Shown here: piece by piece, positions 7,960-22,684 of the stretch | Position numbering within the stretch: the stretch's first letter is position 1 | Layout: the number at the start of each line of letters is the position of its first letter | IMG/VR virus record: IMGVR_UViG_3300006334_000027 | Location: 1-23,740 of that record | From: a virus | Length of the DNA: 23,740 nucleotides | Reading direction: 5' to 3' (one strand) | Position numbers and translations under genes: made by a program | The notes under the pieces: model-generated | What the model was told of the DNA's origin: nothing | Databases searched by the model: none | What the model saw: only the letters and a program-made list of their open reading frames with translations

Positions 7960-8017
7960 ATTATAAAGGATTGTGTGTGCTAGGTGTGGATATATCTGCA
8001 AATTGAAACAATTAGTC
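7960..8017 (-). promoter_or_regulatory. Promoter: -10 plus weak copy of the 22-bp palindrome
   Basis: TATAAT (minus strand, 7960-7965) precedes the gene at 7923. A degenerate palindrome with the perfect core AATTG-AAA-CAATT (8001-8013) is centred 44-45 bases upstream, the same spacing as the stronger copies elsewhere, but its outer arms are poor. Confidence 0.5.
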
Positions 8018-8209
8018 ATAATACCCTAACTCTTCCTCTTGCTCATGTAACTCTCTTGCTACCATTGTGAAAAAGTCTCTAATTGTCATGTCTGGATAAT
8101 GAAGTTGATGTTCAACTAACGCACCCATTTGCATATGTCTGCTTTCTTGCATTATGAGTTGATCCATAACTGCGTCTGCATCTGCTTCTAGTGATTGTTG
8201 ATCCGTCAT
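8012..8209 (-). CDS. Small acidic helical protein
   Basis: This 65-residue protein starts MTDQQSLEADADAVMDQLIM and ends HEQEEELGYYD. It is acidic, Met/Gln-rich and probably all-helical. I chose the ATG at 8209 because it overlaps the TAA of the preceding gene (TAATG); a longer frame to 8260 overlaps that gene too far. No family recognised. Confidence 0.78.
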   Translation of the reverse strand: MTDQQSLEADADAVMDQLIMQESRHMQMGALVEHQLHYPDMTIRDFFTMVARELHEQEEELGYYD

Positions 8210-8412
8210 TATTTCCACCTCGGATCGTCGATTGCATAGTCCCAAGGTGCGGGTTCGCATATCTTCTCAATGAGTGTGTCGAAGTCTGCCTGTGTGTCGT
8301 CATCTATCCACCCATTGTCTATAAAAAACCTTGCCATAGTGACGAGAGCGGATTCCTCGCCCTCGTTCATTGTGAGTGTTCTTTCCCACTGTGTTCCGTC
8401 TGCTCTAGGCAT
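8209..8412 (-). CDS. Small protein, unknown
   Basis: This 67-residue protein starts MPRADGTQWERTLTMNEGEE and ends PWDYAIDDPRWK. The middle part (ALVTMARFFIDNGWIDDDTQ) is likely helical. It follows the upstream stop directly (TAAATG) and overlaps the next start (TAATG). No family recognised. Confidence 0.78.
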   Translation of the reverse strand: MPRADGTQWERTLTMNEGEESALVTMARFFIDNGWIDDDTQADFDTLIEKICEPAPWDYAIDDPRWK

Positions 8413-8601
8413 TTACTTAACCTCCATCCATTTGAATTCTGAGATGCTACCGACTTTCCAGATGGTAACAGGTTCGCCAAGCAATTCTGCCTGTCTCTCT
8501 GCGTGACGCTTTGCGTCTGCGAAGTGGTCATTGTGGAATACGTCTGCCCATATCTTGACTTCGTTTCCGTAGTGTGAAGGTTGAATTGCCCAAGTAGTCA
8601 T
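8413..8601 (-). CDS. Small protein, unknown
   Basis: This 62-residue protein starts MTTWAIQPSHYGNEVKIWAD; the sequence DAKRHAERQAELLGEPVTIW suggests a compact alpha-beta fold of the kind used to pass through signals or bind partners, but that is speculative. An in-frame ATG at 8697 would add 32 residues, but those codons contain the -10 element at 8636-8641; the ATG at 8601 lies 35 bases from that element, as for the other genes of this class, so I prefer it. Confidence 0.75.
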   Translation of the reverse strand: MTTWAIQPSHYGNEVKIWADVFHNDHFADAKRHAERQAELLGEPVTIWKVGSISEFKWMEVK

Positions 8602-8635
8602 AATGCTTTGAGGTCTGAATGATTTGTATATACTT

Positions 8636-8641
8636 ATTATA
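8636..8641 (-). promoter_or_regulatory. -10 promoter element
   Basis: TATAAT on the minus strand, 35 bases before the ATG at 8601. At the place where the palindrome would be (centre about 8683) only a poor inverted repeat is seen, so this promoter may be differently controlled. Confidence 0.5.
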
Positions 8642-8696
8642 ACAGAGTCGATACTGTTAATAAGTGATTGTTTGTAAATGGATATATTTCGTAACA

Positions 8697-8864
8697 TTAG
8701 TGTCTGTCGCTAATGTACCATACACCGTACTTATTAATACGCTGTGGTTCAAAGTTACGCTTTGACATTTCGAGTAATGCAGACTGGACTATTGGATTGT
8801 CCATTGCTGATTGATTGACTAACACTTTACCGTTGTAGAGTGGTTGTAGTTTGTCGTTGAACAT
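8697..8864 (-). CDS. Small protein, unknown
   Basis: This 55-residue protein starts MFNDKLQPLYNGKVLVNQSA and ends QRINKYGVWYISDRH. Its -10 (TATAAT, 8900-8905) lies 36 bases upstream. It is the minus-strand member of a divergent pair; the other member is the gene at 9022. No family recognised. Confidence 0.75.
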   Translation of the reverse strand: MFNDKLQPLYNGKVLVNQSAMDNPIVQSALLEMSKRNFEPQRINKYGVWYISDRH

Positions 8865-8899
8865 AAGTTTTAAAACCTTGTTTGTTGTCTATACCATGT

Positions 8900-8995
8900 A
8901 TTATAAGGCATAGGCATATAGAATGAAATGCCTATTGTGCCACTAATATTACTGGCACACTAGTTGTTTAAAACGTAGGACCTATGCATTACAAT
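8900..8995. promoter_or_regulatory. Divergent promoters sharing one central 22-bp palindrome
   Basis: The palindrome (8937-8958, arms GTGCCA/TGGCAC) is centred at 8947.5. The minus-strand -10 TATAAT (8900-8905) and the plus-strand -10 TACAAT (8990-8995) are each exactly 45 bases from it, centre to centre. On the minus side the spacer also holds a hairpin, TAGGCAT/ATGCCTA (8911-8934). One bound protein could thus act on both directions. Confidence 0.75.
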
Positions 8996-9021
8996 TAAGA
9001 GGTACTGAAGATTACTGCTTT

Positions 9022-9321
9022 ATGCAAACTCATAGCATCACCCTAGGACTAAACATCGGCACAGAAGGCACAGTTACCACACAAATGTGGGACGCATTCG
9101 TAAATGATACCGTATGTACAATGCTTGAATATGCAACTATTCAAGATTGCCAAGGCATTTACAAAGGCACCGTAGAGTCTAGCAAGGTTATTTCTGTTAA
9201 TACTGACTCACCCGCTATTGTAGCGACACTTTTAAAAGTGGGCGATATCTACAAGAAAGCGTTTCGTCAAGATGCTATAATGTATACAGCGGTAACGCTT
9301 CCAAATTTGGTATTCAAATGA
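9022..9321 (+). CDS. Small conserved phage protein, unknown
   Basis: This 99-residue protein starts MQTHSITLGLNIGTEGTVTT; the pattern of short strands and helices (TVCTMLEYATIQDCQGIYKG, then KVISVNTDSPAIVATLLKVG) suggests an alpha-beta fold. It is the first gene after the plus-strand -10 at 8990-8995. Its stop overlaps the ATG of a 22-residue frame (ATGA). No family recognised. Confidence 0.8.
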   Translation: MQTHSITLGLNIGTEGTVTTQMWDAFVNDTVCTMLEYATIQDCQGIYKGTVESSKVISVNTDSPAIVATLLKVGDIYKKAFRQDAIMYTAVTLPNLVFK

Positions 9322-9386
9322 CCCGCAGACTAACCGAGATGATTTACATCTTTTATCTAACGTTTTTAAAAATCTTTGACTTATGA
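9318..9386 (+). CDS. Tiny hydrophobic peptide
   Basis: This 22-residue frame, MTRRLTEM followed by IYIFYLTFLKIFDL, starts on the stop of the upstream gene (ATGA) and ends on the start of the next (ATGA). It has a basic N-terminus and one short hydrophobic helix, so it would be a membrane peptide. Four-base overlaps at both ends are what a real coupled gene would show, but its length means chance cannot be excluded. Confidence 0.55.
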   Translation: MTRRLTEMIYIFYLTFLKIFDL

Positions 9387-9649
9387 ACACATCCTTTACA
9401 GACTTCATTAATTACTGCTTATCCTTTTATGGATCAGGTGGATTGTATGACCAAGGACGCACAAAGGAACAAGTTGCATATGCGACATGTTTATACCTTG
9501 ACGCGATAGCACATTATGACAGCGAGGTTTTCACGTGGGGAGATGGTGATTCTCTAGACCGTGAGAGAGTCCGCGACATCATGAACAACGTTTATGATGG
9601 CAAATACAACCCCTTTGATTACCTTGAAGAAAAGGAAGTCTATGCCTAG
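9383..9649 (+). CDS. Small protein of the WGDGDSLDRERVRD family, copy 1
   Basis: This 88-residue protein starts MNTSFTDFINYCLSFYGSGG. Near residues 52-66 it has WGDGDSLDRERVRDI, which occurs identically in the 95-residue protein at 19522-19809. The two also share the order N-terminal helix with FYG, a middle helix with a Tyr, then this motif and a Tyr-rich tail. The acidic-basic DGDSLDRERVRD segment is presumably the functional part; what it does is unknown. No Shine-Dalgarno is evident, consistent with coupling to the tiny gene before it. Confidence 0.82.
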   Translation: MNTSFTDFINYCLSFYGSGGLYDQGRTKEQVAYATCLYLDAIAHYDSEVFTWGDGDSLDRERVRDIMNNVYDGKYNPFDYLEEKEVYA

Positions 9650-9659
9650 GCAGCTGCCT

Positions 9660-9718
9660 TGACCAATTAAAAAAGTGGCACACTCAGGCATGGATTTTCG
9701 TGATCCATGCCTTATAAT
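9660..9718 (+). promoter_or_regulatory. Promoter: 22-bp palindrome, hairpin and -10
   Basis: The palindrome half sites are at 9660-9681 (left arm weak, right arm AAGTGGCAC). A 9-bp stem GGCATGGAT/ATCCATGCC with a 7-base loop (9687-9711) fills the spacer, and TATAAT follows at 9713-9718. Centre-to-centre distance is 45. It serves the gene at 9749. A perfect 12-base palindrome AGGCAGCTGCCT lies just before, at 9648-9659. Confidence 0.7.
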
Positions 9719-9748
9719 AAAGTATAACCAAACAAAGGACATTTCAAA

Positions 9749-10006
9749 ATGATTCTCAGACAACTAGGTTCTAACCAAACAGAACTCAGTCTTAATAATG
9801 GTGATTCCATTTTCTTTTCATATGAGACACCTGTAGCAGGTTTCGCATCAGGTGTTGGACACTTCAAAACATCTACATGGTACAGTTCAACAACCAGTAG
9901 GCACATCAACAAGTATTTCAAACACATTGATCCACAAAACATAACAACAGTTGATGACGCTTTTATTGTGTCCAGATGCAATTACGATTTACAGGGGGTG
10001 GGTTAA
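9749..10006 (+). CDS. Small phage protein, DUF8033-like
   Basis: This 85-residue protein starts MILRQLGSNQTELSLNNGDS. The stretch NGDSIFFSYETPVAGF followed by TSTWYSSTTSRHINKYFKHI resembles a widespread small phage domain with the pattern NGDSVLFSYqTPVA .. YytT..ySvTTsrHINkW (DUF8033, named from memory). The Ser/Thr-rich TTSRHINK stretch is the most conserved part in such proteins. Function unknown. An AAAGGA stretch 11 bases upstream may be the ribosome binding site. Its stop overlaps the next ATG (TAATG). Confidence 0.8.
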   Translation: MILRQLGSNQTELSLNNGDSIFFSYETPVAGFASGVGHFKTSTWYSSTTSRHINKYFKHIDPQNITTVDDAFIVSRCNYDLQGVG

Positions 10007-10530
10007 TGCCAAATCATTGCCATAACAGAGTAGAATTTTACTCAGATGATACTACAGCGATCCTAAAACTTCATAAAATCTTTATGAAAGGGATCGAGAC
10101 TGACGACAACACCGAACCAACCGACACAGTGTTTGGATCATTCGTCCCCGAACCAAACTGGGAAGAAATACCCTTGACTTCCGAGACTGTCCAAGAATAC
10201 TCGTGGGATAAACCACGAGGTGAAATAGGTGAAAAACCTGTAATGCTAATTGACGAAGACAAACCATTTAGAAATGGATTGCGTTTCAAGTCCACCGATA
10301 AACACGACGACAGGTGGTATAACTGGCGAGTCCAAAACTGGGGGACTAAGTGGGATTGCTATTCTTTAGAGATCGACGACACAGACATGCCACACGGATT
10401 TCAAGTCACATTCGAGACTGCTTGGTCTCCACCTGAGGAAATCTGTTCAGCGATCCGTGAACAGTTCGACGATCTAAGTATATCATGGTTCTATGATGAA
10501 CCAGGATGCGAAATTGCGGGGTATCTATAA
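10006..10530 (+). CDS. YubB/Api92-like ferredoxin-fold protein
   Basis: This 174-residue protein starts MPNHCHNRVEFYSDD and has the signature motifs of the YubB ferredoxin-like (Api92/DUF1281) family: the MPNHC.N start, NWGTKWD (111-117), F.TAWSPP (136-143) and WFYDEPGCEIAG (161-172). The family occurs in phages and plasmids; its biochemical role is not established. I chose ATG 10006 because it overlaps the previous stop (TAATG), is preceded by AGGGGGTGGG, and gives the family's MPNHC start; an in-frame ATG at 9976 exists but lies inside the previous gene. Confidence 0.88.
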   Translation: MPNHCHNRVEFYSDDTTAILKLHKIFMKGIETDDNTEPTDTVFGSFVPEPNWEEIPLTSETVQEYSWDKPRGEIGEKPVMLIDEDKPFRNGLRFKSTDKHDDRWYNWRVQNWGTKWDCYSLEIDDTDMPHGFQVTFETAWSPPEEICSAIREQFDDLSISWFYDEPGCEIAGYL

Positions 10531-10767
10531 ATGGATCGTGAATTACTAACTGAACTCAAGGCATTCTTAGCAGAGAGGATGGTCGATAATATGACTACCG
10601 AACAACTCGCTGAGTACGTCCAAGATGATCTGTTCACCTATTTTGACAAACAAGGTGAGCATGACTTCTTAGAGGAAGCAGAAAACTACTGGGGTGATTA
10701 CTTCGGTGAAGTTATTGATGAAGTCCAAGACTACATGAAATGTGATTTTAAAAAGTCCAATGTGTAG
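10531..10767 (+). CDS. Small acidic helical protein
   Basis: This 78-residue protein starts MDRELLTELKAFLAERMVDN and is acidic and helical, with MTTEQLAEYVQDDLFTYFDK and YFGEVIDEVQDYMK. It follows the YubB-like gene directly (TAAATG), so the two are probably co-translated. Proteins of this pattern (ELK.FL..RMVD.M....L.EYV.DDL) are common in marine phages as hypothetical proteins. Function unknown. Confidence 0.82.
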   Translation: MDRELLTELKAFLAERMVDNMTTEQLAEYVQDDLFTYFDKQGEHDFLEEAENYWGDYFGEVIDEVQDYMKCDFKKSNV

Positions 10768-10822
10768 ACAATTTACAAACTGTCCAAAAGACCCTAGAAA
10801 TCGTAACTCTAGGGTCTATAAT
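10765..10822 (+). promoter_or_regulatory. Promoter: 22-bp palindrome, hairpin and -10
   Basis: The palindrome (10765-10786, core ACAATTTACAAACTGT) begins in the stop codon of the gene before. A 10-bp perfect stem AGACCCTAGA/TCTAGGGTCT (10789-10817) follows, and its last T is the first base of TATAAT (10817-10822). Centre-to-centre distance 44. It serves the gene at 10854. Confidence 0.72.
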
Positions 10823-10853
10823 ATAAAAGTAAACAAACCAGAGATTAAATCTT

Positions 10854-11303
10854 ATGGCAACTCGTTCAAGAATTGGTTATGTATTATCCGATGATTCCAT
10901 TGTTAGCGTATATCATCATTGGGATGGGTACCCAGAGTGGTTGGGTGTGATCCTAAACAAACATTACAACACGGATGAAGCGGTTCGTGAACTCATAGAC
11001 GGTGGCGATATGTCATCATGTTATTCTGATAACGAATTTGACTATGAGAAACAAGAGTTTATTAAAAGGGATCCAGCTCCCACATATTATTCAGAGCGTG
11101 GTGAAGACTGTCCACCGATCCATCACCAAACCTTAACAGAGGTAGCGGATCATGATTGCGGTGAAGAGTTTCTTTACCTATGGTTTATGAATACTTGGAA
11201 TTGCTATGCATACAAAAAGACATACGACGATGAGTATAACTGCACGTCAACGACACTTTCGCCAGTCATTATTCCAGATGTAGAGACAGCAGATGCCAGT
11301 TGA
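10854..11303 (+). CDS. MATRSRIG-family protein, copy 1
   Basis: This 149-residue protein starts MATRSRIGYVLSDDSIVSVY and continues HHWDGYPEWLGVILNKHY, then ELIDGGDMSSCYSDNEF. A second member lies at 21555-21998 on the other strand; the first 60 residues are alike almost position by position and the C-terminal half is looser. MATRSRIGI....G.I.S.Y.HWDGYP proteins are widespread in T4-like and other phages and also occur in bacteria; no function is established to my knowledge. Its TGA lies in the loop of the palindrome at 11293-11314. Confidence 0.88.
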   Translation: MATRSRIGYVLSDDSIVSVYHHWDGYPEWLGVILNKHYNTDEAVRELIDGGDMSSCYSDNEFDYEKQEFIKRDPAPTYYSERGEDCPPIHHQTLTEVADHDCGEEFLYLWFMNTWNCYAYKKTYDDEYNCTSTTLSPVIIPDVETADAS

Positions 11304-11351
11304 CAAACTGGCACAAGAGGGGTTTAAATTCCCCTCTCTATCGTTTACAAT
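11293..11351 (+). promoter_or_regulatory. Promoter: best copy of the 22-bp palindrome, hairpin and -10
   Basis: Perfect 8-bp arms TGCCAGTT/AACTGGCA (11294-11313) enclose the stop codon of the previous gene. A 7-bp stem AGAGGGG/CCCCTCT (11316-11337) fills the spacer, and TACAAT follows at 11346-11351. Centre-to-centre distance 45. It serves the gene at 11377. Confidence 0.75.
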
Positions 11352-11376
11352 TAAGGAGTAACAAACAAACATTCAA

Positions 11377-11553
11377 ATGTCAGTCTTACATCACGAATCT
11401 ATACTCGAAGATTGTTTCGAGCAAGCGGTAGCAGAATTCTGCGAAGCAAACAAACTTACACCTGATATGTTCGCTCTTATCGAAGATCATCTCGGTGTTC
11501 AAATAGCACTTGATAGAAAAGCAAATCAAATCTTTGAGGGGAGGTGCCAATAA
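11377..11553 (+). CDS. Small protein, unknown
   Basis: This 58-residue protein starts MSVLHHESILEDCFEQAVAE and is helical and acidic. The ATG is 26 bases after the -10; TAAGGAGT lies about 20 bases upstream, too far for a standard ribosome binding site. The 3' end overlaps the next gene as TAATG, and carries the GGGGAGGTG ribosome binding site for it. No family recognised. Confidence 0.78.
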   Translation: MSVLHHESILEDCFEQAVAEFCEANKLTPDMFALIEDHLGVQIALDRKANQIFEGRCQ

Positions 11554-11726
11554 TGGACGACTACACACCTAACGAACTAGCGTACCTAGATCTCATTAAT
11601 GATATCAGTAAAACATTTTGTTTTATTGGCGAACCAGATGAACCCGCTGTATGCGATGGGGACATTAAAAGACTTAACGAAGCGGTTAAACGTTTTAAAC
11701 TTAGAGTATGGGAGAACCAACTGTGA
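11553..11726 (+). CDS. Small protein, unknown
   Basis: This 57-residue protein starts MDDYTPNELAYLDLINDISK and ends RLNEAVKRFKLRVWENQL. The ATG at 11553 is chosen because GGGGAGGTG lies 7 bases upstream and it overlaps the previous stop (TAATG). Acidic N-terminal part, basic C-terminal helix. No family recognised. Confidence 0.78.
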   Translation: MDDYTPNELAYLDLINDISKTFCFIGEPDEPAVCDGDIKRLNEAVKRFKLRVWENQL

Positions 11727-11917
11727 AAACTCAAAAGAAATTAAACCTAGGAATAATCCTAGACAAACTCACAGACCTAGGTTGGGAGTATACTTGCGGG
11801 ACTATGACTCGCTCAGGTATGCAAACCTATGACGAGTTGATGCAATATATCGGAGTTCTAGAACCTACGGAACACTGGAACGAAGATTGCTACACTGATA
11901 AAAATGGGGATTGGTAA
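11723..11917 (+). CDS. Small protein, unknown
   Basis: This 64-residue protein reads (start codon as Met) MKTQKKLNLGIILDKLTDLG, then WEYTCGTMTRSGMQTYDELM. I prefer GTG at 11723, which overlaps the previous TGA (GTGA) and has GGGAG 8 bases upstream; an in-frame ATG at 11708 would add five residues. The stop overlaps the next ATG (TAATG). No family recognised. Confidence 0.75.
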   Translation: MKTQKKLNLGIILDKLTDLGWEYTCGTMTRSGMQTYDELMQYIGVLEPTEHWNEDCYTDKNGDW

Positions 11918-12671: not shown

Positions 12672-12699
12672 TTTTGATACCTTTTGTAGTAAGTGTGTA

Positions 12700-12951
12700 C
12701 TATACTGAAATCTGGATCAAATCACCATTTTTGAGTGAATCATTATAAAAACGTCCAAGTGAAAAACTTTCAGGGTTTCTAATAAAACCTTCGAGAGCTG
12801 ACAGAAGTTTCTTGTTTGCAGGTTTCCATTCATACTCATAGGTTTTCTCATTTCCTGAGAAATTTATGAAAACCTTGGAACCCTGCACGTTTATTTGATC
12901 TATAGCAGAACTGAGTTCTTTTATAGCAAATGTATGTTTCTTTGCGGGCAT
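12700..12951 (-). CDS. Small protein, unknown
   Basis: This 83-residue protein starts MPAKKHTFAIKELSSAIDQI and contains VQGSKVFINFSGNEKTYEYEW and RNPESFSLGRFYNDSLKNGD, an alternation that suggests a small beta-rich fold. It is the first gene after the -10 at 12975-12980. No family recognised. Confidence 0.78.
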   Translation of the reverse strand: MPAKKHTFAIKELSSAIDQINVQGSKVFINFSGNEKTYEYEWKPANKKLLSALEGFIRNPESFSLGRFYNDSLKNGDLIQISV

Positions 12952-12974
12952 GTTAAATTGGTTTCTTACACTTA

Positions 12975-13033
12975 ATTATAAGGGATCCTGAGAGAAAATA
13001 CAAGAACCTTTGTGACACTTATAATACTGTCAC
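12975..13033 (-). promoter_or_regulatory. Promoter: 22-bp palindrome and -10
   Basis: The palindrome (13012-13033, arms GTGACA/TGTCAC perfect, extended by one base each side) lies 45 bases, centre to centre, from TATAAT on the minus strand (12975-12980). No spacer hairpin is obvious here. It serves the operon starting at 12951. Confidence 0.72.
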
Positions 13034-13665: not shown

Positions 13666-13871
13666 TTGTCTAAGGGGGTGATAGTGTGCCAATAATCAGG
13701 TGTTACAACTATATTAACTTGTCTCATCGGGTTTCGTGCACCTTCCTGTTCCTCTTTGGATCTCTCCCACTCTCTTACACATATAGTGACATATGATGTA
13801 GAGATAAAGTTGATCCAACCTTCCATACCATCATAGATGACTGGTTGGCGGTGAGTAAAAGGAACCTTCAT
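13662..13871 (-). CDS. Small protein, unknown
   Basis: This 69-residue protein starts MKVPFTHRQPVIYDGMEGWI and contains FISTSYVTICVREWERSKEE, then NIVVTPDYWHTITPLDK. The strand-turn pattern (VIYDGMEGWINFIS, YVTICV) suggests a small SH3- or OB-like barrel; I cannot name it. Coupled by TAATG before and ATGA after. Confidence 0.77.
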   Translation of the reverse strand: MKVPFTHRQPVIYDGMEGWINFISTSYVTICVREWERSKEEQEGARNPMRQVNIVVTPDYWHTITPLDK

Positions 13872-14086
13872 TAATTACCAAACCCATATCCCTTATTTAA
13901 CGATCTTTTCTCCTCACGTAATTCGGTAAGAGAACGTTTTAGATAACGTATCTCTTCGTCGGTATACAGTTCTGGTTGTTTAAGTGCTTTTTTGATGTGA
14001 TTGATCTGTGTTGAGATCTGTGTGCTGCTTAAACCGACGTTTACGCTTGGTGTGATCATTGAATTTGAGTTAGGATTGATCTTCAC
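13871..14086 (-). CDS. Small helical protein, unknown
   Basis: This 71-residue protein reads (start codon as Met) MKINPNSNSMITPSVNVGLS, then a helical part (ISTQINHIKKALKQPELYTD, EEIRYLKRSLTELREEKRSL). The start is GTG at 14086; an internal ATG at 14059 is the alternative, and a TAG upstream excludes a longer form. It is 63 bases after the -10 at 14149-14154, longer than usual. No family recognised. Confidence 0.7.
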   Translation of the reverse strand: MKINPNSNSMITPSVNVGLSSTQISTQINHIKKALKQPELYTDEEIRYLKRSLTELREEKRSLNKGYGFGN

Positions 14087-14148
14087 GATGGTTATAGGGT
14101 GCGAGAAAACAAACCTAGAGTGTTTCGTCTGGTTGTTTTCCCTCTATT

Positions 14149-14206
14149 ATTATAACGCATCCATATCTCTTTGTCTACCCCCTTGTGACGGTTTCTTGAC
14201 TGTACC
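14149..14206 (-). promoter_or_regulatory. Promoter inside the upstream gene: palindrome and -10
   Basis: TATAAT (minus strand, 14149-14154) overlaps the stop codon of the 94-residue gene. The matching imperfect palindrome (14185-14206, GTGACGGT / ACTGTACC arms) lies in its coding sequence, centre 44 bases away. It would start a separate message for the genes from 14086 on. Confidence 0.6.
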
Positions 14207-15346: not shown

Positions 15347-15429
15347 AGTTCTGTTCCCCAGTGTAGAAAATAGATGAAAGATGATATGAAAATAAGCTTT
15401 TCACGTGCTGTGAGTTGTTTAGCGTCCAT
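15226..15429 (-). CDS. Small membrane protein of the EKLIFI.SF...HWGT family, copy 1
   Basis: This 67-residue protein starts MDAKQLTAREKLIFISSFIY and continues FLHWGTELCLVTLRLVG, a hydrophobic helix ending in HWGT. The same pattern (KEKLIFIASFLWMLHWGTN) occurs in the 47-residue protein at 20886-21029, which supports this frame. The ATG overlaps the stop of the 45-residue gene by 11 bases. The last 40 residues overlap the metallopeptidase-like gene in another frame and may not be under strong selection. Confidence 0.65.
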   Translation of the reverse strand: MDAKQLTAREKLIFISSFIYFLHWGTELCLVTLRLVGIAIANGSLVTLSNGSWNIVNSIASTRLSIL

Positions 15430-15556
15430 GTTGTGATAATAATATTTCAAGTTTGGCATAGGTTGCACCTTTGCCTTCTGCTGTGTCATTCTGCATCAAG
15501 CTCATTAAATAACGTAGTTCGTTCTTTGATAGTGGTGATTCGTATCTCTTTGACAT
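15419..15556 (-). CDS. Small protein, unknown
   Basis: This 45-residue protein starts MSKRYESPLSKNELRYLMSL and ends KLEILLSQHGR; it is basic and helical. The ATG is 34 bases after a TATAAT that lies within the end of the methyltransferase gene. It leads the operon 15556-14150. No family recognised. Confidence 0.75.
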   Translation of the reverse strand: MSKRYESPLSKNELRYLMSLMQNDTAEGKGATYAKLEILLSQHGR

Positions 15557-15579: not shown

Positions 15580-16671
15580 TTACTTCCATATTATAGCAGG
15601 TAATGGGGTTGGTATGCTATCTATTCGGTCAGTTTGTAAACTGGCATAGTCCTCATTCAATTCGCAACCAATATAGTTACGATTGTTTTTCTTAGCAACC
15701 ATCCCTGTAGTTCCTGATCCCATAAATGGATCGAGAACTATATCTCCTTCCTCGCTTCCTGCTAGTATACAAGGTTCAATGAGATCAGGAGGGAAACAGG
15801 CAAAGTGTGCTCCCTTATATGGTTTATTACTTATACTCCAGACAGATCGTTTATTCTTTGTTGTATATGATTTTGTAAGTCCTGTATGCGGTTGGAGTCC
15901 TGTTCCTTCGTTGTGGTACTTACCTTGATCTCTGTTTCTTGTTCCCCAGTCTTGCTTGACTGGTTCTTTGATTGCTTCGTTGTCATAATAGTATCTCCTG
16001 TTCTTTGACAATAGAAATAAGTATTCGTGTGCTTTTGTACATCTATCTTTTACAGACTCAGGCATAGGATTAGGTTTATGCCATATAATATCCTGACGTA
16101 GATACCATCCGTCTGCTCTCAATGCAAATGCTAACATCCAAGGTATACCTATCAAGTCCTTCTCTTTGAGACCATCTAGTTTGTTACCACGTCTCGCACA
16201 ATTATCAGGTAAGTCTTGTTTAGTGCTTGAGACAGTTTGTTTTGGTAATCCTTGTCCTTTACCAGGTCTATAGTTATAGTAACTATCTCCTATATTTACC
16301 CATAATGTACCATCATCAGTTAATACATCACGTACTGATCTGAATACATCAACTAGATTTTCAATATACTCTTCTGGTGTCTCTTCCAATCCAATTTGAC
16401 TATCAACTCTCACTGCACCACACTTGGGACATACCTTTTTGTATATGTAATCTCCAACTCCACCCATTATATCATGATTTTTATGTCCAGTAATACAATT
16501 TGAACCTTGTTTACCTTTTCTTTTATGATCACAATTGGGATCTCCACCTACCCACGTTGCAGTTCCATAATCCCTTAGACCGTAGTATGGTGGACTTGTG
16601 ATACAAGTGCGTGCTTTCACGTCAATAGTGGGGAGTGTATCTCTACAATCCCCAAATAATACTTTATTCAT
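15580..16671 (-). CDS. DNA methyltransferase, beta-class (N4-cytosine or N6-adenine)
   Basis: This 363-residue protein starts MNKVLFGDCRDTLPTIDVKA and has the catalytic motif IV SPPYYGLRDYG (S26-P27-P28-Y29) first and the AdoMet-binding motif I DPFMGSGTTGMVAKK (from 314) last, followed by NYIGCELN. That order defines the beta class; SPPY fits N4-cytosine, though N6-adenine enzymes can have it. An insertion at 43-90 has CDHK and CPKCGA, a likely zinc site. The IWHKPNPMPESVKDRC stretch (196-211) is typical. Phages use such enzymes to protect their DNA from host restriction. Start ATG at 16671, 15 bases after the upstream stop. No matching nuclease is adjacent. Confidence 0.92.
   Translation of the reverse strand: MNKVLFGDCRDTLPTIDVKARTCITSPPYYGLRDYGTATWVGGDPNCDHKRKGKQGSNCITGHKNHDIMGGVGDYIYKKVCPKCGAVRVDSQIGLEETPEEYIENLVDVFRSVRDVLTDDGTLWVNIGDSYYNYRPGKGQGLPKQTVSSTKQDLPDNCARRGNKLDGLKEKDLIGIPWMLAFALRADGWYLRQDIIWHKPNPMPESVKDRCTKAHEYLFLLSKNRRYYYDNEAIKEPVKQDWGTRNRDQGKYHNEGTGLQPHTGLTKSYTTKNKRSVWSISNKPYKGAHFACFPPDLIEPCILAGSEEGDIVLDPFMGSGTTGMVAKKNNRNYIGCELNEDYASLQTDRIDSIPTPLPAIIWK
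15590..15647 (-). promoter_or_regulatory. Promoter inside the methyltransferase gene: palindrome and -10
   Basis: The palindrome (15626-15647, arms ending GTCAGTTT/AAACTGGC) and TATAAT (minus strand, 15590-15595) both lie in the last 25 codons of the methyltransferase, 44 bases apart centre to centre. It serves the gene at 15556. Confidence 0.7.
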
Positions 16672-16686
16672 CTGTGTATACTGGCA

Positions 16687-17205
16687 TTAGATGTATTTGC
16701 TAGGTAGATGTGATCTATCGTATAGATATCCTCCTGCCCAACAGCAATTGATTGGGTTGAGAACATACTCACGATCTTTGATGATTCTTAAGTCCCATCT
16801 TACTGGATATTTACCTGTAAGAGTTGGTTTTTTATACCCTGCTGGCATATAAACCTGACCTGTTTTTTTATCTATGAAAGCGTGAATGGAACTATCATAG
16901 TATCCTGCTTCCCTTGGATCTATTCTACCATACTTTGAATCATCTTGCCACTCTTGCATAACAATTCTGATATACTTACGTCCTGTATATGTTACAAACT
17001 TGTTTAACTTTGCTGTTCCTGCAGCAATCTCTGCAAGTTGATCAACATGATATGGAGAGTAGTGCATTTCGTCACGTAATGAACTCTCGTGTAGTCTGAT
17101 TGAATCTTTTTTATAATTCTCTGTTACTGCAGATGCCAACTCTTCTGCCCATTGTGCTACTCTTTCTTCTAGTGTTGAAGTGTTGTTCTTTTCGATAGTA
17201 AGCAT
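16687..17205 (-). CDS. HAF-D-KTG-V-Y family phage protein, copy 1
   Basis: This 172-residue protein starts MLTIEKNNTSTLEERVAQWA and ends with SIHAFIDKKTGQVYMPAGYK, a basic stretch and INCCWAGGYLYDRSHLPSKY. The end and middle are shared with the 151-residue protein at 21031-21486 (HAFVDRKTGEVYKPASWK, VGWAGGYLYLR). It probably has a helical N-terminal part (residues 12-70) and a beta-rich C-terminal part. The family is common in marine phages; the role is unknown. It is the first gene after the -10 at 17230-17235 and leads into the methyltransferase. Confidence 0.85.
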   Translation of the reverse strand: MLTIEKNNTSTLEERVAQWAEELASAVTENYKKDSIRLHESSLRDEMHYSPYHVDQLAEIAAGTAKLNKFVTYTGRKYIRIVMQEWQDDSKYGRIDPREAGYYDSSIHAFIDKKTGQVYMPAGYKKPTLTGKYPVRWDLRIIKDREYVLNPINCCWAGGYLYDRSHLPSKYI

Positions 17206-17229
17206 TGGTCTCCTTTGTTTATATACTCT

Positions 17230-17287
17230 ATTATAGAGACAAAACTGCCTGACTAGGGGAGCGTTGTGTAGCTTTCTTTACTGGCAC
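17230..17287 (-). promoter_or_regulatory. Promoter: palindrome (half site strong) and -10
   Basis: TATAAT (minus strand, 17230-17235) precedes the gene at 17205. Palindrome 17266-17287: one arm ACTGGCAC is canonical, the other is degenerate; both lie in the 3' end of the upstream methyltransferase-like gene, whose stop codon (17231) also overlaps the -10. Centre-to-centre distance 44. Confidence 0.62.
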
Positions 17288-17806
17288 ATCTAACTCTTCC
17301 ATTATAATCTGCTTTGGTAACAGATCATAGCAATAGTAACTACTACTGAATGTTATCTTATCGTTCGCTCTACCATCAGGACTAACAAACTTCATTCTCT
17401 TGTCAAACATCAGTAACTGTAGATCTTTATCTTTAAACAGTTGTTTAGGTGCTGAGTCATTTAACCAAGTGTTAGTCATTATCAATGCGAATGGTTTATT
17501 GAATGACAGTGCTCTCTCAAAATACTTTCTCTTGTTAGTGAATGGTGGATTTGATACTATTATATCCCAATATTCTGGTTCAAAGTCAAAGAAGTCAATA
17601 CCCATACTAATATGAGTAGCAATAACTTTATTTTGTTTTGATATTTGTTTAGTAAACTCACTATCAATAGTATCAAAAGGACACCAGACTATAGCATCCT
17701 TTGGAATATACTTCAGTATAGGTTTGACACCATAGTCAGGTGTGTAACACTCATCATTGTTACCCACCGAATACATTAACTTACCACTATCTAATTCTTG
17801 TACCAT
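17231..17806 (-). CDS. DNA adenine methyltransferase-like protein with NPPF motif
   Basis: This 191-residue protein has FEPEYWDIIVSNPPFTNKR (catalytic motif IV, N86-P87-P88-F89) and, before it, ECYTPDYGVKPILKYIP and VWCPFDTIDSEF (41-51), the place where motif I would bind AdoMet. NPPF is a typical N6-adenine motif. It is shorter than full gamma-class enzymes and resembles small phage methyltransferases. It starts 20 bases inside the end of the nuclease-like gene, so the two are translated as a pair. That pairing suggests nuclease plus protection; see the findings. Confidence 0.82.
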   Translation of the reverse strand: MVQELDSGKLMYSVGNNDECYTPDYGVKPILKYIPKDAIVWCPFDTIDSEFTKQISKQNKVIATHISMGIDFFDFEPEYWDIIVSNPPFTNKRKYFERALSFNKPFALIMTNTWLNDSAPKQLFKDKDLQLLMFDKRMKFVSPDGRANDKITFSSSYYCYDLLPKQIIMEELDVPVKKATQRSPSQAVLSL

Positions 17807-18281
17807 ATTCCTTGATTTGTTTTGTACTAATACTTACACCTATTCTAGGGTCTTTCTTGTGTGATGTTCCTTCATCAAACTGTTTCTTAATCTTAGGTAA
17901 CAATATCTTTAATACATTGTTAGCGTCTAACTTCCAAACCTCTGCAACTCTACCACCATCGAATCTTGCATAGTAATGATGTTCATACTTACCAATTTTG
18001 TCCTCTATGATGTATCTACATTGGTCTTCCCAAGTGTCCTGTACACTAATACCATTGTATGTACCATTGACACTCTTCCCTATGGTTGACTTGTATTCGC
18101 AACCACCAAATTCATCTATTGCATCTTCCCCTGCATAGTCATCTGCAACTTTATGACCAAGTAAACCTGCCATATAGATTTCTCTTGACCTTGCATAAGA
18201 GAATGGATCACCCCATCCCTGTTGGTCACATAATTCATACATTTGTTCGTAGAGGTCACGATACTTTTCTTCGGGGGTCAT
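17787..18281 (-). CDS. PD-(D/E)xK nuclease-like protein (possible restriction endonuclease)
   Basis: This 164-residue protein has GEDAIDEFGGCEYKSTIGKS (51-70), fitting the PD-(D/E)xK nuclease core: D53 or D56, then E62-x-K64, with E34 in the preceding helix (SREIYMAGLLGHKVAD). NGTYNGISVQDTWEDQ, then HHYYARFDGGRVAEVWKL and IKKQFDEGTSHKKDPR follow, as in small phage and bacterial homologues of type II endonuclease type. It overlaps the NPPF methyltransferase-like gene by 20 bases. I see the motif and the gene pairing; cleavage activity and specificity are inferred. Confidence 0.68.
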   Translation of the reverse strand: MTPEEKYRDLYEQMYELCDQQGWGDPFSYARSREIYMAGLLGHKVADDYAGEDAIDEFGGCEYKSTIGKSVNGTYNGISVQDTWEDQCRYIIEDKIGKYEHHYYARFDGGRVAEVWKLDANNVLKILLPKIKKQFDEGTSHKKDPRIGVSISTKQIKEYGTRIR

Positions 18282-18302
18282 AATAATTCTGTAATTACTA
18301 TT

Positions 18303-18359
18303 ATTATAGCAAAGATTTAATCATATATCAATGTCTTGTGACACTTCTTTGATTGCCAC
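18303..18359 (-). promoter_or_regulatory. Promoter: palindrome and -10 for the nuclease/methyltransferase pair
   Basis: TATAAT (minus strand, 18303-18308) is 22 bases before the ATG at 18281. Palindrome 18338-18359 (arms GTGACA/TGCCAC, pairing with one G-T) lies in the end of the 49-residue gene, centre 43 bases away. No spacer hairpin. Confidence 0.68.
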
Positions 18360-18867: not shown

Positions 18868-19115
18868 TTGTATTTAAAAATCCTATCTTCATTTTTATGT
18901 AAGTCAAAATCGACCTTTGGGTTTATGTGTGCATCCCAACCGATTGTAAATGCCTTTGCATATACAAGATTCAGTAGCACTTCTTCTCTATCTGGTAGTT
19001 CTCTTGGATTGCTACAATTCAATCTACTCTCAACCATCATTTCACTTTGACCCTCTAGGTGTGTAATGAGTGCTGTTAGTTCCAAGTCATCTAACTCAAG
19101 TGTGTGTTTTGCCAT
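18864..19115 (-). CDS. Small acidic helical protein
   Basis: This 83-residue protein starts MAKHTLELDDLELTALITHL and contains REVLLNLVYAKAFTIGWDAH-like helical turns. I chose ATG 19115, which overlaps the previous stop (TAATG). The motif LELDDLELTALITHL is typical of many small phage and bacterial proteins that count to ten residues of alternating Leu; no function is known. Confidence 0.78.
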   Translation of the reverse strand: MAKHTLELDDLELTALITHLEGQSEMMVESRLNCSNPRELPDREEVLLNLVYAKAFTIGWDAHINPKVDFDLHKNEDRIFKYK

Positions 19116-19342
19116 TACCATTCCTCCTCTGGTCTTTTTGCTCTTGCCTTTTCAATCTTATTGTAAAACTTGTCAACAGTTGTCTCCAAGACTTCAAAGA
19201 TTTCGTCTAACTCTTCCACTAATTCAAAATCATCGTTACCCTGTGAGTAACCCTCTAGGCAATAGAGTATGGTGCTTATCTGCTCTTCTCTGAGAGTCAG
19301 ATTAAGTGGTGTCTGTGGAAATTCACATCTAATTTTAGTCAT
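19115..19342 (-). CDS. Small acidic protein, unknown
   Basis: This 75-residue protein starts MTKIRCEFPQTPLNLTLREE and is acidic in the middle (DDFELVEELDEIFEVLETTV) with a basic tail (KARAKRPEEEW). ATG 19342 is used, overlapping the previous stop by 8 bases. No family recognised. Confidence 0.78.
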   Translation of the reverse strand: MTKIRCEFPQTPLNLTLREEQISTILYCLEGYSQGNDDFELVEELDEIFEVLETTVDKFYNKIEKARAKRPEEEW

Positions 19343-19520
19343 TATCAATCTCCATTACTTCACTTGTATCTTGAATAGTAAACTCTACACCCATATCAGG
19401 GTAAAAACCAATGTCCTCTAATTGACAGTTGGTTAGTGTGTCATTCTTTAAGTAGTAGAATGTCACATCATCATCCCTATCGTATTTTGATAGGGTTTTG
19501 ATTAGTTCTTTTACTTTCAT
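19335..19520 (-). CDS. Small protein, unknown
   Basis: This 61-residue protein starts MKVKELIKTLSKYDRDDDVT and ends in an acidic tail. The pattern ..VKELI..L.KYD.D..V.FY is a small alpha-beta unit found often in phage genomes. It starts 1 base after the stop of the WGDGDSLDRERVRD gene. Function unknown. Confidence 0.78.
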   Translation of the reverse strand: MKVKELIKTLSKYDRDDDVTFYYLKNDTLTNCQLEDIGFYPDMGVEFTIQDTSEVMEIDND

Positions 19521-19521
19521 C

Positions 19522-19809
19522 TTACTCTCCTACAAACTTGTAGTTGTACTCTTCGAGTAGAATATCTCTGACTCTTTCTCTGTCAAGTGAGTCTCCATCC
19601 CCCCACACACAATTTGTGACTCTATCATCACTACATTGTGATAAGTAGAACTCTGTAGCTGCGAGAATGTCAATTTTAGATAATGGTTGCTTTGTCTCCA
19701 CATTTATCATAGGGTAAAGTGGGTCATTAACACCGTAGAATGAATCAACATATTTCACAAAGTCTGTGAGCATATCGTTGAGTTCTGTGCTTGAAGTTCC
19801 TGAGTTCAT
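19522..19809 (-). CDS. Small protein of the WGDGDSLDRERVRD family, copy 2
   Basis: This 95-residue protein starts MNSGTSSTELNDMLTDFVKY and contains WGDGDSLDRERVRDI near residues 69-83, identical to the 88-residue protein at 9383-9649 on the other strand. It leads the operon 19809-18321 behind the -10 at 19833-19838. Role unknown. Confidence 0.84.
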   Translation of the reverse strand: MNSGTSSTELNDMLTDFVKYVDSFYGVNDPLYPMINVETKQPLSKIDILAATEFYLSQCSDDRVTNCVWGDGDSLDRERVRDILLEEYNYKFVGE

Positions 19810-19832
19810 AAGGGTTTCTTAGTTATGTACTT

Positions 19833-19890
19833 ATTATAGTCTATTTGATATGGAATACAATACTATGTGTGCCAGTTTATGAACTGACCC
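19833..19890 (-). promoter_or_regulatory. Promoter: palindrome and -10
   Basis: Palindrome 19869-19890 (core CCAGTT/AACTGA) encloses the stop codon of the nucleotidyltransferase-like gene in its loop. TATAAT (minus strand, 19833-19838) follows, centre 44 bases away, 24 bases before the ATG at 19809. Confidence 0.7.
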
Positions 19891-20797
19891 AATTATTGTT
19901 CGTTAGGAAATTTAATCTGCTAAATTGATTTCTATTCACTAATTTGTATATACCCCACCTGTTCCACATTACATAACCCTCGCCATCTATTTCGCCATCA
20001 TCATCAAATGTTGTCCACCATCCATCGTGTTCACATCTTTTAAGTGCATCCATCTTAATTGACTTAACTAACTTCCAAAGTCTCATTAAGTTAGGGTCAA
20101 TATTATGTGAGTGTGAAATTGCATTGACTACATCATCTGTAATTGGTATTCCAGTACGGATACAATGATTAATAGTTTTTTTAATTTGTTGTGCTTTTTT
20201 GTCATCAACAAACTGTACCATAGTTGCCATCTGTTTTGCAAATTGGCATCTATCATATACAAATGATTGAAACTTTGCAATCGCATTACATTGAACATAC
20301 AATACTTTGTCCAAGTCATTCTCAAGTATATGGTCAAGTGGTATTGCGTGAGTATCTACAAGAGAATCTCCTGTAGCGACATACTCTGTGTGTGGTGCGA
20401 TGATAATATTGTGTTCTATCTTGTATGGAAATAGATAACCTATAGTGTTAGGTTGGTAGTAGTCATCGCCACCAATACCTATCAAGTCTCCCTGATAGAT
20501 ATTCTCTGTTCTGACCAAATTATCAAAACATTTGTGTAATTTATTTGCCAAGTCTGGTTTTTCAGCATATAATATATCAATCTCTTCGTGAGAGTGACAT
20601 ATCATCTTCTTGACTTTGTTGAATACAGATTTTGTACCAACAAAAAACTTTTCATTTTCGGGATTAGTTCCCCATACAATAGCAGGGCAACCATCTATTT
20701 TAAGAGATACCTTTCCCTGTAAAGTAAACCAGTTAATTGCTGATAAGTCTCCAGTAAGGATAGTATCTTCGGGGTGTTCAATGTGTTTGAGTTGCAT
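19877..20797 (-). CDS. KxDG nucleotidyltransferase-like protein (DNA/RNA ligase superfamily, DUF6267-like)
   Basis: This 306-residue protein has SLKIDGCPAIVWGTNPENEK (31-50): K33-x-D35-G36 is motif I of ligases and capping enzymes, in which the lysine takes AMP or GMP. It is followed by FFVGTKSVFNK (51-61), then ENIYQGDLIGI (98-108, motif III-like) and, near the end, EGYVMWNRWGIYKLVNRNQF (from 273), like motifs IV and V with K285. No OB-fold or zinc domain is seen. I recall this as a phage family of unknown activity (DUF6267). It could seal nucleic acid or modify a protein. Confidence 0.78.
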   Translation of the reverse strand: MQLKHIEHPEDTILTGDLSAINWFTLQGKVSLKIDGCPAIVWGTNPENEKFFVGTKSVFNKVKKMICHSHEEIDILYAEKPDLANKLHKCFDNLVRTENIYQGDLIGIGGDDYYQPNTIGYLFPYKIEHNIIIAPHTEYVATGDSLVDTHAIPLDHILENDLDKVLYVQCNAIAKFQSFVYDRCQFAKQMATMVQFVDDKKAQQIKKTINHCIRTGIPITDDVVNAISHSHNIDPNLMRLWKLVKSIKMDALKRCEHDGWWTTFDDDGEIDGEGYVMWNRWGIYKLVNRNQFSRLNFLTNNNWVSS

Positions 20798-20870
20798 TTG
20801 TCTGAGTGATAGTAGTTTGCTTTAAACTAATATTTTTCTCTTCTCTCTTTACCTATATTAACACATACGG

Positions 20871-20937
20871 ATTATATAGTAATAATTATAGTCCAAATGG
20901 TAATAATCTGACACCATTTCTTAACAAGAATGTGTCA
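20871..20937 (-). promoter_or_regulatory. Possible promoter with a variant inverted repeat
   Basis: Two TATAAT-like sequences (minus strand, 20871-20876 and 20885-20890) lie upstream of the nucleotidyltransferase-like gene (ATG 20797). A longer inverted repeat TGACACCATT...AATGTGTCA (20909-20937) lies behind them, but its spacing does not match the other sites. The leader would be about 65-80 bases. Confidence 0.35.
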
Positions 20938-21029
20938 ATAATTAGGTTTGCTATATTAGTTCCCCAATGTAGCATCCATAAGAATGAAGCAATAAAGATT
21001 AGTTTTTCTTTTAGTGATATTTTTGTCAT
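20886..21029 (-). CDS. Small membrane protein of the EKLIFI.SF...HWGT family, copy 2
   Basis: This 47-residue protein starts MTKISLKEKLIFIASFLWML and continues HWGTNIANLIIDTFLL. It has one or two hydrophobic helices. It starts 1 base after the stop of the HAF-type protein gene. The similarity to the protein at 15226-15429 (REKLIFISSFIYFLHWGTE) is clear by eye and no function is known. Confidence 0.78.
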   Translation of the reverse strand: MTKISLKEKLIFIASFLWMLHWGTNIANLIIDTFLLRNGVRLLPFGL

Positions 21030-21030
21030 A

Positions 21031-21486
21031 TTATCTCAGATATAAGTATCCACCCGCCCATCCTACACATCTAGGGTCAGTTAGAAATAATAAATCTTTT
21101 TTGTCGCAAAAATTGAATCTAACGTGTTTTGCGGGTGCTTTCCAAGATGCAGGTTTGTAAACTTCCCCTGTTTTTCTATCCACAAATGCGTGAACTGTTG
21201 AATCTCTCCATCTGTCATTTCTTTCGTCATACTCTTCTCTGACTACTTTGTAATACTTCTTACCTTCAATGTATCTGAATTTGTCAAGGTTTGCTTTACC
21301 TTGCATAATCTTGACAAGTTGCTCTGCTGAATAAGAACACTCTGGGTCACGTTGTAGATTATGCTCTAAACTTCTAATTGTGTCTTGCTTGAAATTCTCA
21401 TCAAGTGCTTTACAATAGTCATCAACATATCTTTCTAAAAAGATTTGATTTGTTTTCTGAACTGATTGTCCGATTACTTTTTCCAT
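21031..21486 (-). CDS. HAF-D-KTG-V-Y family phage protein, copy 2
   Basis: This 151-residue protein starts MEKVIGQSVQKTNQIFLERY. The middle has the KIMQGKANLDKFRYIEGKKY stretch, the end HAFVDRKTGEVYKPASWK and CVGWAGGYLYLR, all with counterparts in the protein at 16687-17205. The helical first half pairs with a beta-rich second half. Function unknown. It is the first gene after the -10 at 21512-21517 and is followed by the small membrane protein gene. Confidence 0.85.
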   Translation of the reverse strand: MEKVIGQSVQKTNQIFLERYVDDYCKALDENFKQDTIRSLEHNLQRDPECSYSAEQLVKIMQGKANLDKFRYIEGKKYYKVVREEYDERNDRWRDSTVHAFVDRKTGEVYKPASWKAPAKHVRFNFCDKKDLLFLTDPRCVGWAGGYLYLR

Positions 21487-21511
21487 AGGGGTGTTTCTTT
21501 GTTATACACAT

Positions 21512-21569
21512 ATTATAGCACTAAAAAAGGGGGTTGAACACCCCCTTGTGACACTTATTCAACTGTCTG
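21512..21569 (-). promoter_or_regulatory. Promoter: palindrome, terminator hairpin and -10
   Basis: Palindrome 21548-21569 (GTGACAC.../...CTGTC) encloses the stop codon of the MATRSRIG-family gene. A terminator (21523-21547) fills the spacer, and TATAAT (minus strand, 21512-21517) follows, centre 44 bases from the palindrome, 26 bases before the ATG at 21486. Confidence 0.75.
21523..21547 (-). terminator. Rho-independent terminator
   Basis: On the minus strand a GGGGG/CCCCC stem with a 7-base loop (TGTTCAA) runs into six T. It ends the 147-residue gene and lies directly before the next -10 element. Confidence 0.85.
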
Positions 21570-21998
21570 CTTTTTTGGGATTTCTACCCCCTCAACTGTT
21601 ACACTTACAATCTCCTCATAATTCTCATCATAGTTTTGTTTGATTGCATAACCTACCCATCTATCTGTGACGAAAATATATGAGTACTCTTGCCAACAAT
21701 CTATTCGTGTGAACTCATCAAAGTTCTTACTTAATATAGGTGCTTCATCATCCCCACCATAGTAAGTAGGTTTTGGGTCAGCGATAGGTGTGAACTCTCC
21801 TGTTTCTACATTAAAACTACTGTCAGAATAGCAATTACTCATATTGCCACCATCTATGAGTTCAGATGCTTTCTCATAAGTGTTGTAGTGTTCTACAAGT
21901 TTAACACCTAATCCCTCTGGGTATCCATCAAAATGATGATATACTGAAAGGATTGAATCATCAGGTAATTGAATACCTATTCTTGCTCTGGTTGACAT
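21555..21998 (-). CDS. MATRSRIG-family protein, copy 2
   Basis: This 147-residue protein starts MSTRARIGIQLPDDSILSVY, then HHFDGYPEGLGVKLVEHYNT, then ELIDGGNMSNCYSDSSF, matching the protein at 10854-11303 in order and content. It follows a leader of about 120 bases with several perfect stems (21999-22128). The family is widespread in phages; function unknown. Confidence 0.88.
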   Translation of the reverse strand: MSTRARIGIQLPDDSILSVYHHFDGYPEGLGVKLVEHYNTYEKASELIDGGNMSNCYSDSSFNVETGEFTPIADPKPTYYGGDDEAPILSKNFDEFTRIDCWQEYSYIFVTDRWVGYAIKQNYDENYEEIVSVTVEGVEIPKKQTVE

Positions 21999-22128
21999 AA
22001 GGGTCTAAAATAAATTGACGAGAGGAAACAAAACACGACCAACTGCTTAAGTTCGACTTAAAAACGTATTCCTCTGGGTATCCGTTACCTTGAAAGTCTT
22101 ATGTTGGTGGGTTTGTTTCCCCACTATT
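21999..22128 (-). ncRNA. Structured 5' leader, possible regulatory RNA
   Basis: Between the -10 at 22129-22134 and the ATG at 21998 lies an unusually long leader. Stems seen: GTGGG/CCCAC (22107-22111 with 22120-22124), GGTA/TACC (22077-22080 with 22086-22089), and a long-range AGAGGAA/TTCCTCT (22021-22027 with 22069-22075) that encloses TTAAGT-TCG-ACTTAA (22047-22061). No open frame with ATG exists in it. No riboswitch class is recognised. Confidence 0.4.
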
Positions 22129-22684
22129 AATATAACACATCTGCAAGAGGATTCAACTTCTCTTGTGACACTTCTATTACTGGCATATAAAGGGTTCCAT
22201 ATTTACCGAATATTCGTCTAAACTTACCAAGTCTAGTGCCAAGATAAACTATTGCTGATTGAAATGGAGCTGCACCTTTTCCATTTCCAAATTTTAATCT
22301 TTTATTAATTGCTAAAAATGGATAGGTAGATATTGACTTCCACCATCTTGTCGATACATCCATCTTAATCAGTAAGACTAATTCTTTTGCGTGTCCTAGT
22401 TGATACTGTGATACTGCATAAGGTATCCACTCTTTACTATTACTATATGGATGATTCATGAATACACTATCGGCAACCCAATCTTGTGCGAGTCCATTCA
22501 TTTTCTCGTCAAAAAGTTTTTTAGCGGGTACGTTGGGATTCTCGATGTCATTACAACAGGGGTCTAAATCTAGTTTGTTATCAAAAAATTCTAGTACATC
22601 CCCTACAAACTCTGGTGGGGTGTTCCAACAATCAGTTCTAGTTCCTGTCGTTGCTGTTAAAGCTTTTAATGCTGTTGATGTCAT
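22127..22684 (-). CDS. dam: Phage Dam-type N6-adenine methyltransferase, with an altered catalytic motif
   Basis: This 185-residue protein has CWNTPPEFVGDVLEFF (19-34), LDLDPCCNDIENPNVPAKKL (38-57) and DSVFMNHPYSNSKEWIPYAV (72-91), the layout of the phage Dam family (PF05869): W.TPP, LDpCA, then [DN]PPY. The usual NPPYS is NHPYS here (N77-H78-P79-Y80), one change in a nearly invariant spot. No target-recognition domain is attached. An ATG is used directly after a TATAAT, so the message may be leaderless. In phages such enzymes mark GATC or related sites against restriction. Confidence 0.82.
   Translation of the reverse strand: MTSTALKALTATTGTRTDCWNTPPEFVGDVLEFFDNKLDLDPCCNDIENPNVPAKKLFDEKMNGLAQDWVADSVFMNHPYSNSKEWIPYAVSQYQLGHAKELVLLIKMDVSTRWWKSISTYPFLAINKRLKFGNGKGAAPFQSAIVYLGTRLGKFRRIFGKYGTLYMPVIEVSQEKLNPLADVLY
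22129..22186 (-). promoter_or_regulatory. Promoter: palindrome and -10 inside the Dam-type gene end
   Basis: Palindrome 22165-22186 (arms GTGACACT/TACTGGCA, degenerate) and TATATT (minus strand, 22129-22134) both lie in the last codons of the Dam-type gene, 44 bases apart. A short AAGAG/CTCTT stem fills part of the spacer. It serves the leader and gene at 21998. Confidence 0.58.

Follow-up and report, generated by a model that had tools for sequence, protein, structure and literature searches.

At the late promoters of phages P2 and P4, a dyad near -55 (the Ogr site, TGT-N12-ACA) is found instead of a -35 hexamer, and the small phage activator that binds there, Ogr/Delta, contacts RNA polymerase; the MotA box of T4 lies near -30 and consists of a single site. 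Here, we describe a dyad element, the operator, that lies at a fixed distance upstream of the -10 elements of non-late genes in T4-like cyanophages. It was noticed in a 23,740-base stretch of DNA (hereafter the window), a whole IMG/VR virus record (IMGVR_UViG_3300006334_000027) that represents a fragment of a T4-like cyanophage related to P-HM1 and P-HM2. As in Ogr/Delta promoters, the dyad is centred upstream of the polymerase (at about -53.5) and the -35 has been lost; unlike the Ogr site, its arms are longer and wider apart, the genes behind it are non-late and no Ogr_Delta protein (PF04606) was detected in any of 12 phage records, whereas the control matched in E. coli. The arrangement also resembles the T4 middle promoters (MotA/AsiA), in which the -10 is kept and a phage activator site stands in for the -35, but those use a single box, and the MotA C-terminal domain (PF09158) matched only in T4 and in none of the cyanophages tested. 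Host promoters of the CRP/FNR and NtcA types likewise have a sequence-specific activator dimer upstream of the -10; however, the NtcA core GTA-N8-TAC does not fit the operator consensus, the Crp-type helix-turn-helix domain (PF13545) was absent from all 12 phage genomes searched, and the spacing falls off the positions usually ascribed to class I and class II sites.

We put at about 0.72 the probability that the operator is a dimeric activator site replacing the -35 at promoters of non-late, probably early, phage genes that are read by host RNA polymerase. The sequences themselves show the site and its constant distance to the -10, its location ahead of genes and the loss of the -35, as well as the element's conservation and its restriction to phages. 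A preliminary description of the window had listed twelve strong sites, all of which are present exactly where it placed them. Under a symmetric matrix they score 15.7-28.4 bits (10.3-26.6 bits when each is left out in turn), and at a threshold of at least 14 bits the matrix returned 12 matches in the window and 0 in shuffled versions of it. Likewise, the strict 24-mer TGTGNCASTN6ASTGNCACA, with no more than two mismatches, occurs 7 times in the window against 0.02 expected from shuffles. The 12 operators serve 13 promoters, since one of them is shared by two divergent -10 elements, as had been proposed, and all 13 open onto an open reading frame (ORF). The centre-to-centre distance from operator to -10 is 45 bp in five, 44 bp in seven and 43 bp in one. 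As the chance of such a -10 on either side of a random window position is 0.041, finding one at 12 of 12 corresponds to P ~2.5e-17; nonetheless, the window sites had been chosen partly by their -10, and independent genomes therefore provide the fair test of the spacing. A fourteenth, weak site proposed at 7996-8017 (-) scored -4.6 bits and was dropped, despite a TATAAT and an ORF downstream; that TATAAT (7960-7965) may belong to a different kind of promoter.

The matrix used to scan other genomes was built from this window alone, with the -10 left out. Eight other marine cyanomyoviruses (P-HM1, P-HM2, MED4-213, P-SSM2, P-SSM4, S-PM2, P-TIM40 and Syn9) each contain 6-18 sites at 16 bits or more, compared with 0-0.7 in shuffles. 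At the same threshold, T4 and Ma-LMM01 have no sites, S-TIM5 has one, and the three of the pelagiphage HTVC008M all lack a -10 in place; the podoviruses P-SSP7 and Syn5, which infect the same host genera, lack operator promoters. When the 126 sites of at least 13 bits in the eight cyanomyoviruses were considered, -10-like hexamers stood at distances of 43, 44 and 45 bp in 16, 56 and 23 cases, respectively, with about 2 at any other distance, which bears out the earlier view that the spacing is not random. In IMG/VR, a scan with the exact pattern recovered at least 120 stretches; the 80 loci among the matches listed all encode relatives of the proteins of these phages, and most have several sites. 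With sites matching the retrieval pattern set aside, 282 remained in the 80 loci, and an exact TATAAT was found at 43, 44 and 45 bp in 17, 96 and 36 cases (149), with 28 in total beyond 42-46 bp. Because complementarity between the arms is not strict, a plain search for near-perfect palindromes with any -10 42-46 bp downstream failed to set these genomes apart; the sequence matrix alone does so.

S-TIM5 (JQ245707), the host of which is a marine Synechococcus, has about a dozen variant sites, mostly within 162-171 kb, in which the half-site reads AGTGGCCCA and the -10 follows at 43-46 bp. Many of these variant operators (AGTGGCCCA) are followed by a shared TAGCCCTGT block that was not seen in the other phages.

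Pooling 478 promoters gave the consensus tgTGnCAsT-N6-AsTGnCACA, two inverted half-sites that together span 24 bp and end in CACA. The half nearest the promoter (AsTGnCACA) is more conserved than the distal half. Between operator and -10 lie 29 bases in 290 promoters, 30 in 119 and 28 in 69, and hexamer position 13, the expected +1, is a conserved purine followed by T; counted from there, the operator occupies about -65 to -42. The element had been presented as a 22-bp palindrome. It is indeed a dyad, with half-sites of the form TGMCAST, but an imperfect one within a conserved block of 24 bp, and the bases preferred at positions 8 and 17 are not complementary to each other (odds ratio for complementary pairs 0.31, P=5e-8, kinship among the promoters being ignored). 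Positions 5 and 20 are near independence.

Downstream of the operator promoters, an ATG-initiated ORF of at least 35 aa begins within 200 nt in 437 of 482 scorable cases (91 %), compared with 196 of 482 in the opposite direction, and the predicted start precedes the ATG by a median of 19 nt (interquartile range 17-25). The operator is also kept before orthologous genes, namely that at 12700-12951 of the window in P-HM1, P-HM2 and MED4-213, and a peptidase gene in P-HM1, P-HM2, MED4-213, P-SSM2 and Syn9. In Syn9 and P-TIM40, the element lies mostly in blocks of hypothetical genes. It had been stated that the sites never precede late structural genes, and in agreement with this the late morphogenesis blocks hold none of the 11 operator promoters of P-HM2, even though they make up 54 % of that genome (P=2e-4), and none of the 6 of Syn9 (P=0.03).

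Among promoters with an exact TATAAT and a leader of 10-30 nt, a near-consensus -35 was present in 1 of 41 operator promoters (2.4 %, against 1.7 % in shuffled sequence). For operator-less promoters of the same genomes the figure is 41 of 198 (20.7 %), twelve times the shuffled level of 1.7 %. The operator promoters are thus without a -35 where the operator-less ones keep it, indicating that the operator takes its place.

On the reading that we prefer, a dimer would bind from -65 to -42, adjacent to the polymerase on its upstream side and with the conserved half-site facing the promoter, and would supply the contact otherwise given by the -35, so switching on a non-late regulon. A good -10 (TATAAT) and a purine start would then yield short-leader mRNAs that begin about 19 nt before the ATG, and a single operator could serve two divergent promoters. 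The binding protein would probably be supplied by the phage, either carried in the virion or made immediately early; if every early promoter depends on it, it would have to enter with the virion or be expressed from promoters that do not need it.

Several observations weigh against this account. In a looser promoter set, a good -35 was found in 13 of 126 operator promoters (~1.8 expected), so the replacement is not absolute, and the initial statement that no -35 accompanies any site holds for the TATAAT promoters with short leaders but not for the looser set. The preference for activation over repression derives from the missing -35 and from the location of the site, upstream of where the polymerase sits. 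Should every early gene depend on the activator, its source would have to be the virion or the host, and the binder may be a host protein that has no regulon of this kind of its own.

Chance palindromes in AT-rich DNA, picked by eye, would account for the spurious site at 7996, and the sites and their -10s had indeed been selected jointly; however, the absence of matches from window shuffles and the recurrence of site, spacing and gene context in independent genomes have already refuted this idea, to which we assign next to no weight. Scarcely more credible is a role for the inverted repeats at the RNA level, as hairpins or as terminators of the preceding gene, instead of as protein sites. Several sites do reach into the 3' end of the gene before them, and a hairpin of at least 6 bp occurs in 101 of the 478 spacers between operator and -10 (shuffles give 8.5), compared with 36 of 476 in the 30 bp upstream of the operator and 9 of 475 in the leader; a run of four T accompanies 35 of the spacer hairpins. 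These terminators are, however, a separate feature located in the spacer. One unit's terminator is often nested within the next promoter, in the stretch from operator to -10 that a -35 would otherwise occupy, and its packing into that region fits a promoter that does not need a -35. The operator itself has a conserved primary sequence, no T run after it and a fixed distance to the -10, and a covariation test over the 478 promoters detected no compensatory pairing between its arms: given the bases favoured at positions 8 and 17, the arms are to be read as half-sites rather than as an RNA stem, and the hairpin explanation was rejected on this ground.

A repressor operator, at which an early phage protein shuts the early genes off or which silences them until some event in infection, is harder to dismiss, though improbable. 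Dyad sites at one fixed spacing would suit a repressor regulon as well, and an operator between divergent promoters, such as that at 8937, is common for repressors. Yet a site at -65 to -42 is clear of the -10, the +1 and the -35, and the loss of the -35 from operator promoters but not from operator-less ones suggests that the site is needed for activity. A dimeric regulator turning a non-late regulon on or off, as originally envisaged, fits every test made, with activation better supported than repression. Slightly more plausible than a repressor, but still unlikely in our view, is a host transcription factor recruited by the phages, the site then being a host-type regulatory box. Since transcription of early genes has to rely on the host machinery, a host factor would be available from the outset, and borrowed host boxes (NtcA, Pho) have been sought in cyanophages earlier (PMC3037559). 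Against this, the compound element has 0 matches (2 in the control) in 18 cyanobacterial genomes covering Prochlorococcus, marine and other Synechococcus, Cyanobium and Synechocystis, compared with 31 matches (0 in the control) in the eight phage genomes, and the operator alone occurs in those 18 genomes at about the control level; a host regulon was rejected on these scans. The lack of operators in P-SSP7 and Syn5 and the variant specificity in S-TIM5, a phage of marine Synechococcus, argue in the same direction. As the element is found across T4-like cyanophages but not in their hosts, the binder is probably the phage's own, and the earlier choice between phage and host can be narrowed: we favour a phage-supplied factor that would have changed along its lineage. 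Tentatively, and well short of an even chance, this could be a dedicated dimeric activator, perhaps packaged in the virion, from a family not yet described; it would stand in for the -35 at dyads centred at -53.5 and would have shifted its specificity between lineages, as in S-TIM5.

Two protein families, phrog_507 (T4-GC 49) and phrog_516, occur in all motif-bearing phages and in S-TIM5; as candidate binders they are so far lineage markers, linked to the motif by correlation only. The highly conserved phrog_507 protein is 99 aa long (L008:25734-26033 and the 80 IMG/VR loci listed) and is found in 460 records, all with cyanophage-type names. Its predicted fold comprises three helices in the N-terminal part (mean predicted local distance difference test score, pLDDT, of 72), and the structure model returned no useful PDB match. 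A 48-aa basic protein, phrog_516 is encoded at 5657-5803 (-) of the window, often lies near gene 25 and occurs in 396 phage records, all with Synechococcus, Prochlorococcus, cyanophage or marine names. A further family, phrog_385, is labelled 'transcriptional regulator' but was rejected for want of Pfam support.

The operators of the window differ in strength and setting. Operator 1 (8937-8958, 27.7 bits), which has no strand of its own, is common to two divergent promoters, both at distance 45: a TATAAT at 8900-8905 (-) before the ORF at 8697-8864 (-), with a leader of 29 nt, and a TACAAT at 8990-8995 (+) before the ORF at 9022-9321 (+), with a leader of 20 nt. Three more operators face the plus strand, each with a hairpin in its spacer: operator 2 (9660-9681, 20.2 bits; TATAAT at 9713-9718, distance 45; ORF 9749-10006), operator 3 (10765-10786, 16.1 bits; TATAAT at 10817-10822, distance 44; ORF 10854-11303) and operator 4 (11293-11314, 25.4 bits; TACAAT at 11346-11351, distance 45; ORF 11377-11553), which overlaps the stop codon of ORF 10854-11303. 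All remaining operators, with their promoters and ORFs, are on the minus strand. Operator 5 (13012-13033, 28.2 bits), with a TATAAT at 12975-12980 (distance 45), precedes the ORF at 12700-12951 and has orthologous sites in the three phages named above for that gene. Operator 6 (14185-14206, 15.7 bits; TATAAT at 14149-14154, distance 44) precedes ORF 13871-14086, and operator 7 (15626-15647, 22.7 bits; TATAAT at 15590-15595, distance 44) precedes ORF 15419-15556 from within the 3' end of a methyltransferase-like ORF (15580-16671). They are followed by operator 8 (17266-17287, 19.0 bits; TATAAT at 17230-17235, distance 44; ORF 16687-17205), operator 9 (18338-18359, 21.9 bits; TATAAT at 18303-18308, distance 43; ORF 17787-18281) and operator 10, the strongest (19869-19890, 28.4 bits; TATAAT at 19833-19838, distance 44; ORF 19522-19809). 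Operator 11 (21548-21569, 21.1 bits) has its TATAAT at 21512-21517 (distance 44) before ORF 21031-21486, and its spacer contains a terminator-like hairpin with a T run (21518-21541); in related phages, about 100 promoters have such a hairpin in the spacer, sometimes with a T run. Finally, operator 12 (22165-22186, 25.0 bits) lies within the 3' end of ORF 22127-22684 and has a TATATT at 22129-22134 (distance 44) before ORF 21555-21998. Of the 13 predicted leaders, 11 measure 15-29 nt; the remaining two are longer, at 56 and 124 nt. The longest, at 21999-22122 (-) before ORF 21555-21998, is unusual beside the typical ~19 nt and has no Rfam match.

Within the window, late baseplate genes give way to a run of small genes that are not structural. 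Its best relatives over 7.2-16.4 kb are P-HM1, P-HM2 and MED4-213, and those of the baseplate genes at 1.6-5.3 kb are other T4-like phages of Synechococcus and Prochlorococcus. The window contains no tRNA and gave no Rfam match at gathering score. Between the late and non-late genes is an ORF-poor gap of ~300 bases (7040-7320), with a hairpin followed by A/T runs and neither a tRNA nor an Rfam family. Two pairs of paralogues (phrog_818, phrog_1987) were identified, 16687-17205 with 21031-21486 and 10854-11303 with 21555-21998, each copy having its own operator promoter upstream. The methyltransferase-like genes at 17231-17806 and 22127-22684 match only part of longer profiles and are perhaps reduced copies.

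The abstract of Doron et al. 2016 (ISME J 10:1437), a study of Syn9 and P-TIM40, is said to report a novel regulatory element for early genes that is abundant and conserved in T4-like cyanophages. Both of those phages carry the present element, and in Syn9 it is absent from the late blocks; we judge the two to be the same with a likelihood of about two in three, which renders doubtful the preliminary claim that the site is undescribed. A literature search returned no description of that motif. The dyad, the loss of the -35, the divergent use, the nested terminators, the absence from hosts and the S-TIM5 variant were derived here independently, although that paper may contain them. It is cited by PMC5780444 and PMC5082946. 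In their search of these genomes, Sullivan et al. 2010 considered only four kinds of site, namely sigma-70, T4 late, Pho and NtcA (PMC3037559). T4-like cyanophages are without T4-like middle promoters and without motA and/or asiA (PMC5780444). Thompson et al. (PMC5082946) divide the genes of P-HM2 into early, middle and late classes, and the operator genes would probably fall in the early one.

T4-like cyanophages are among the most abundant viruses of the ocean and lack the MotA/AsiA switch of T4, which raises the question of how they start and order transcription. The present analysis offers a precise cis-code, made up of the 24-bp operator, 28-30 bp of spacer, the -10 and the start site, together with hundreds of predicted promoters, and the element predicts the genes of the regulon even in metagenomic fragments. 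It could serve as bait for the missing activator and, in tools for marine cyanobacteria, as a phage-specific promoter.

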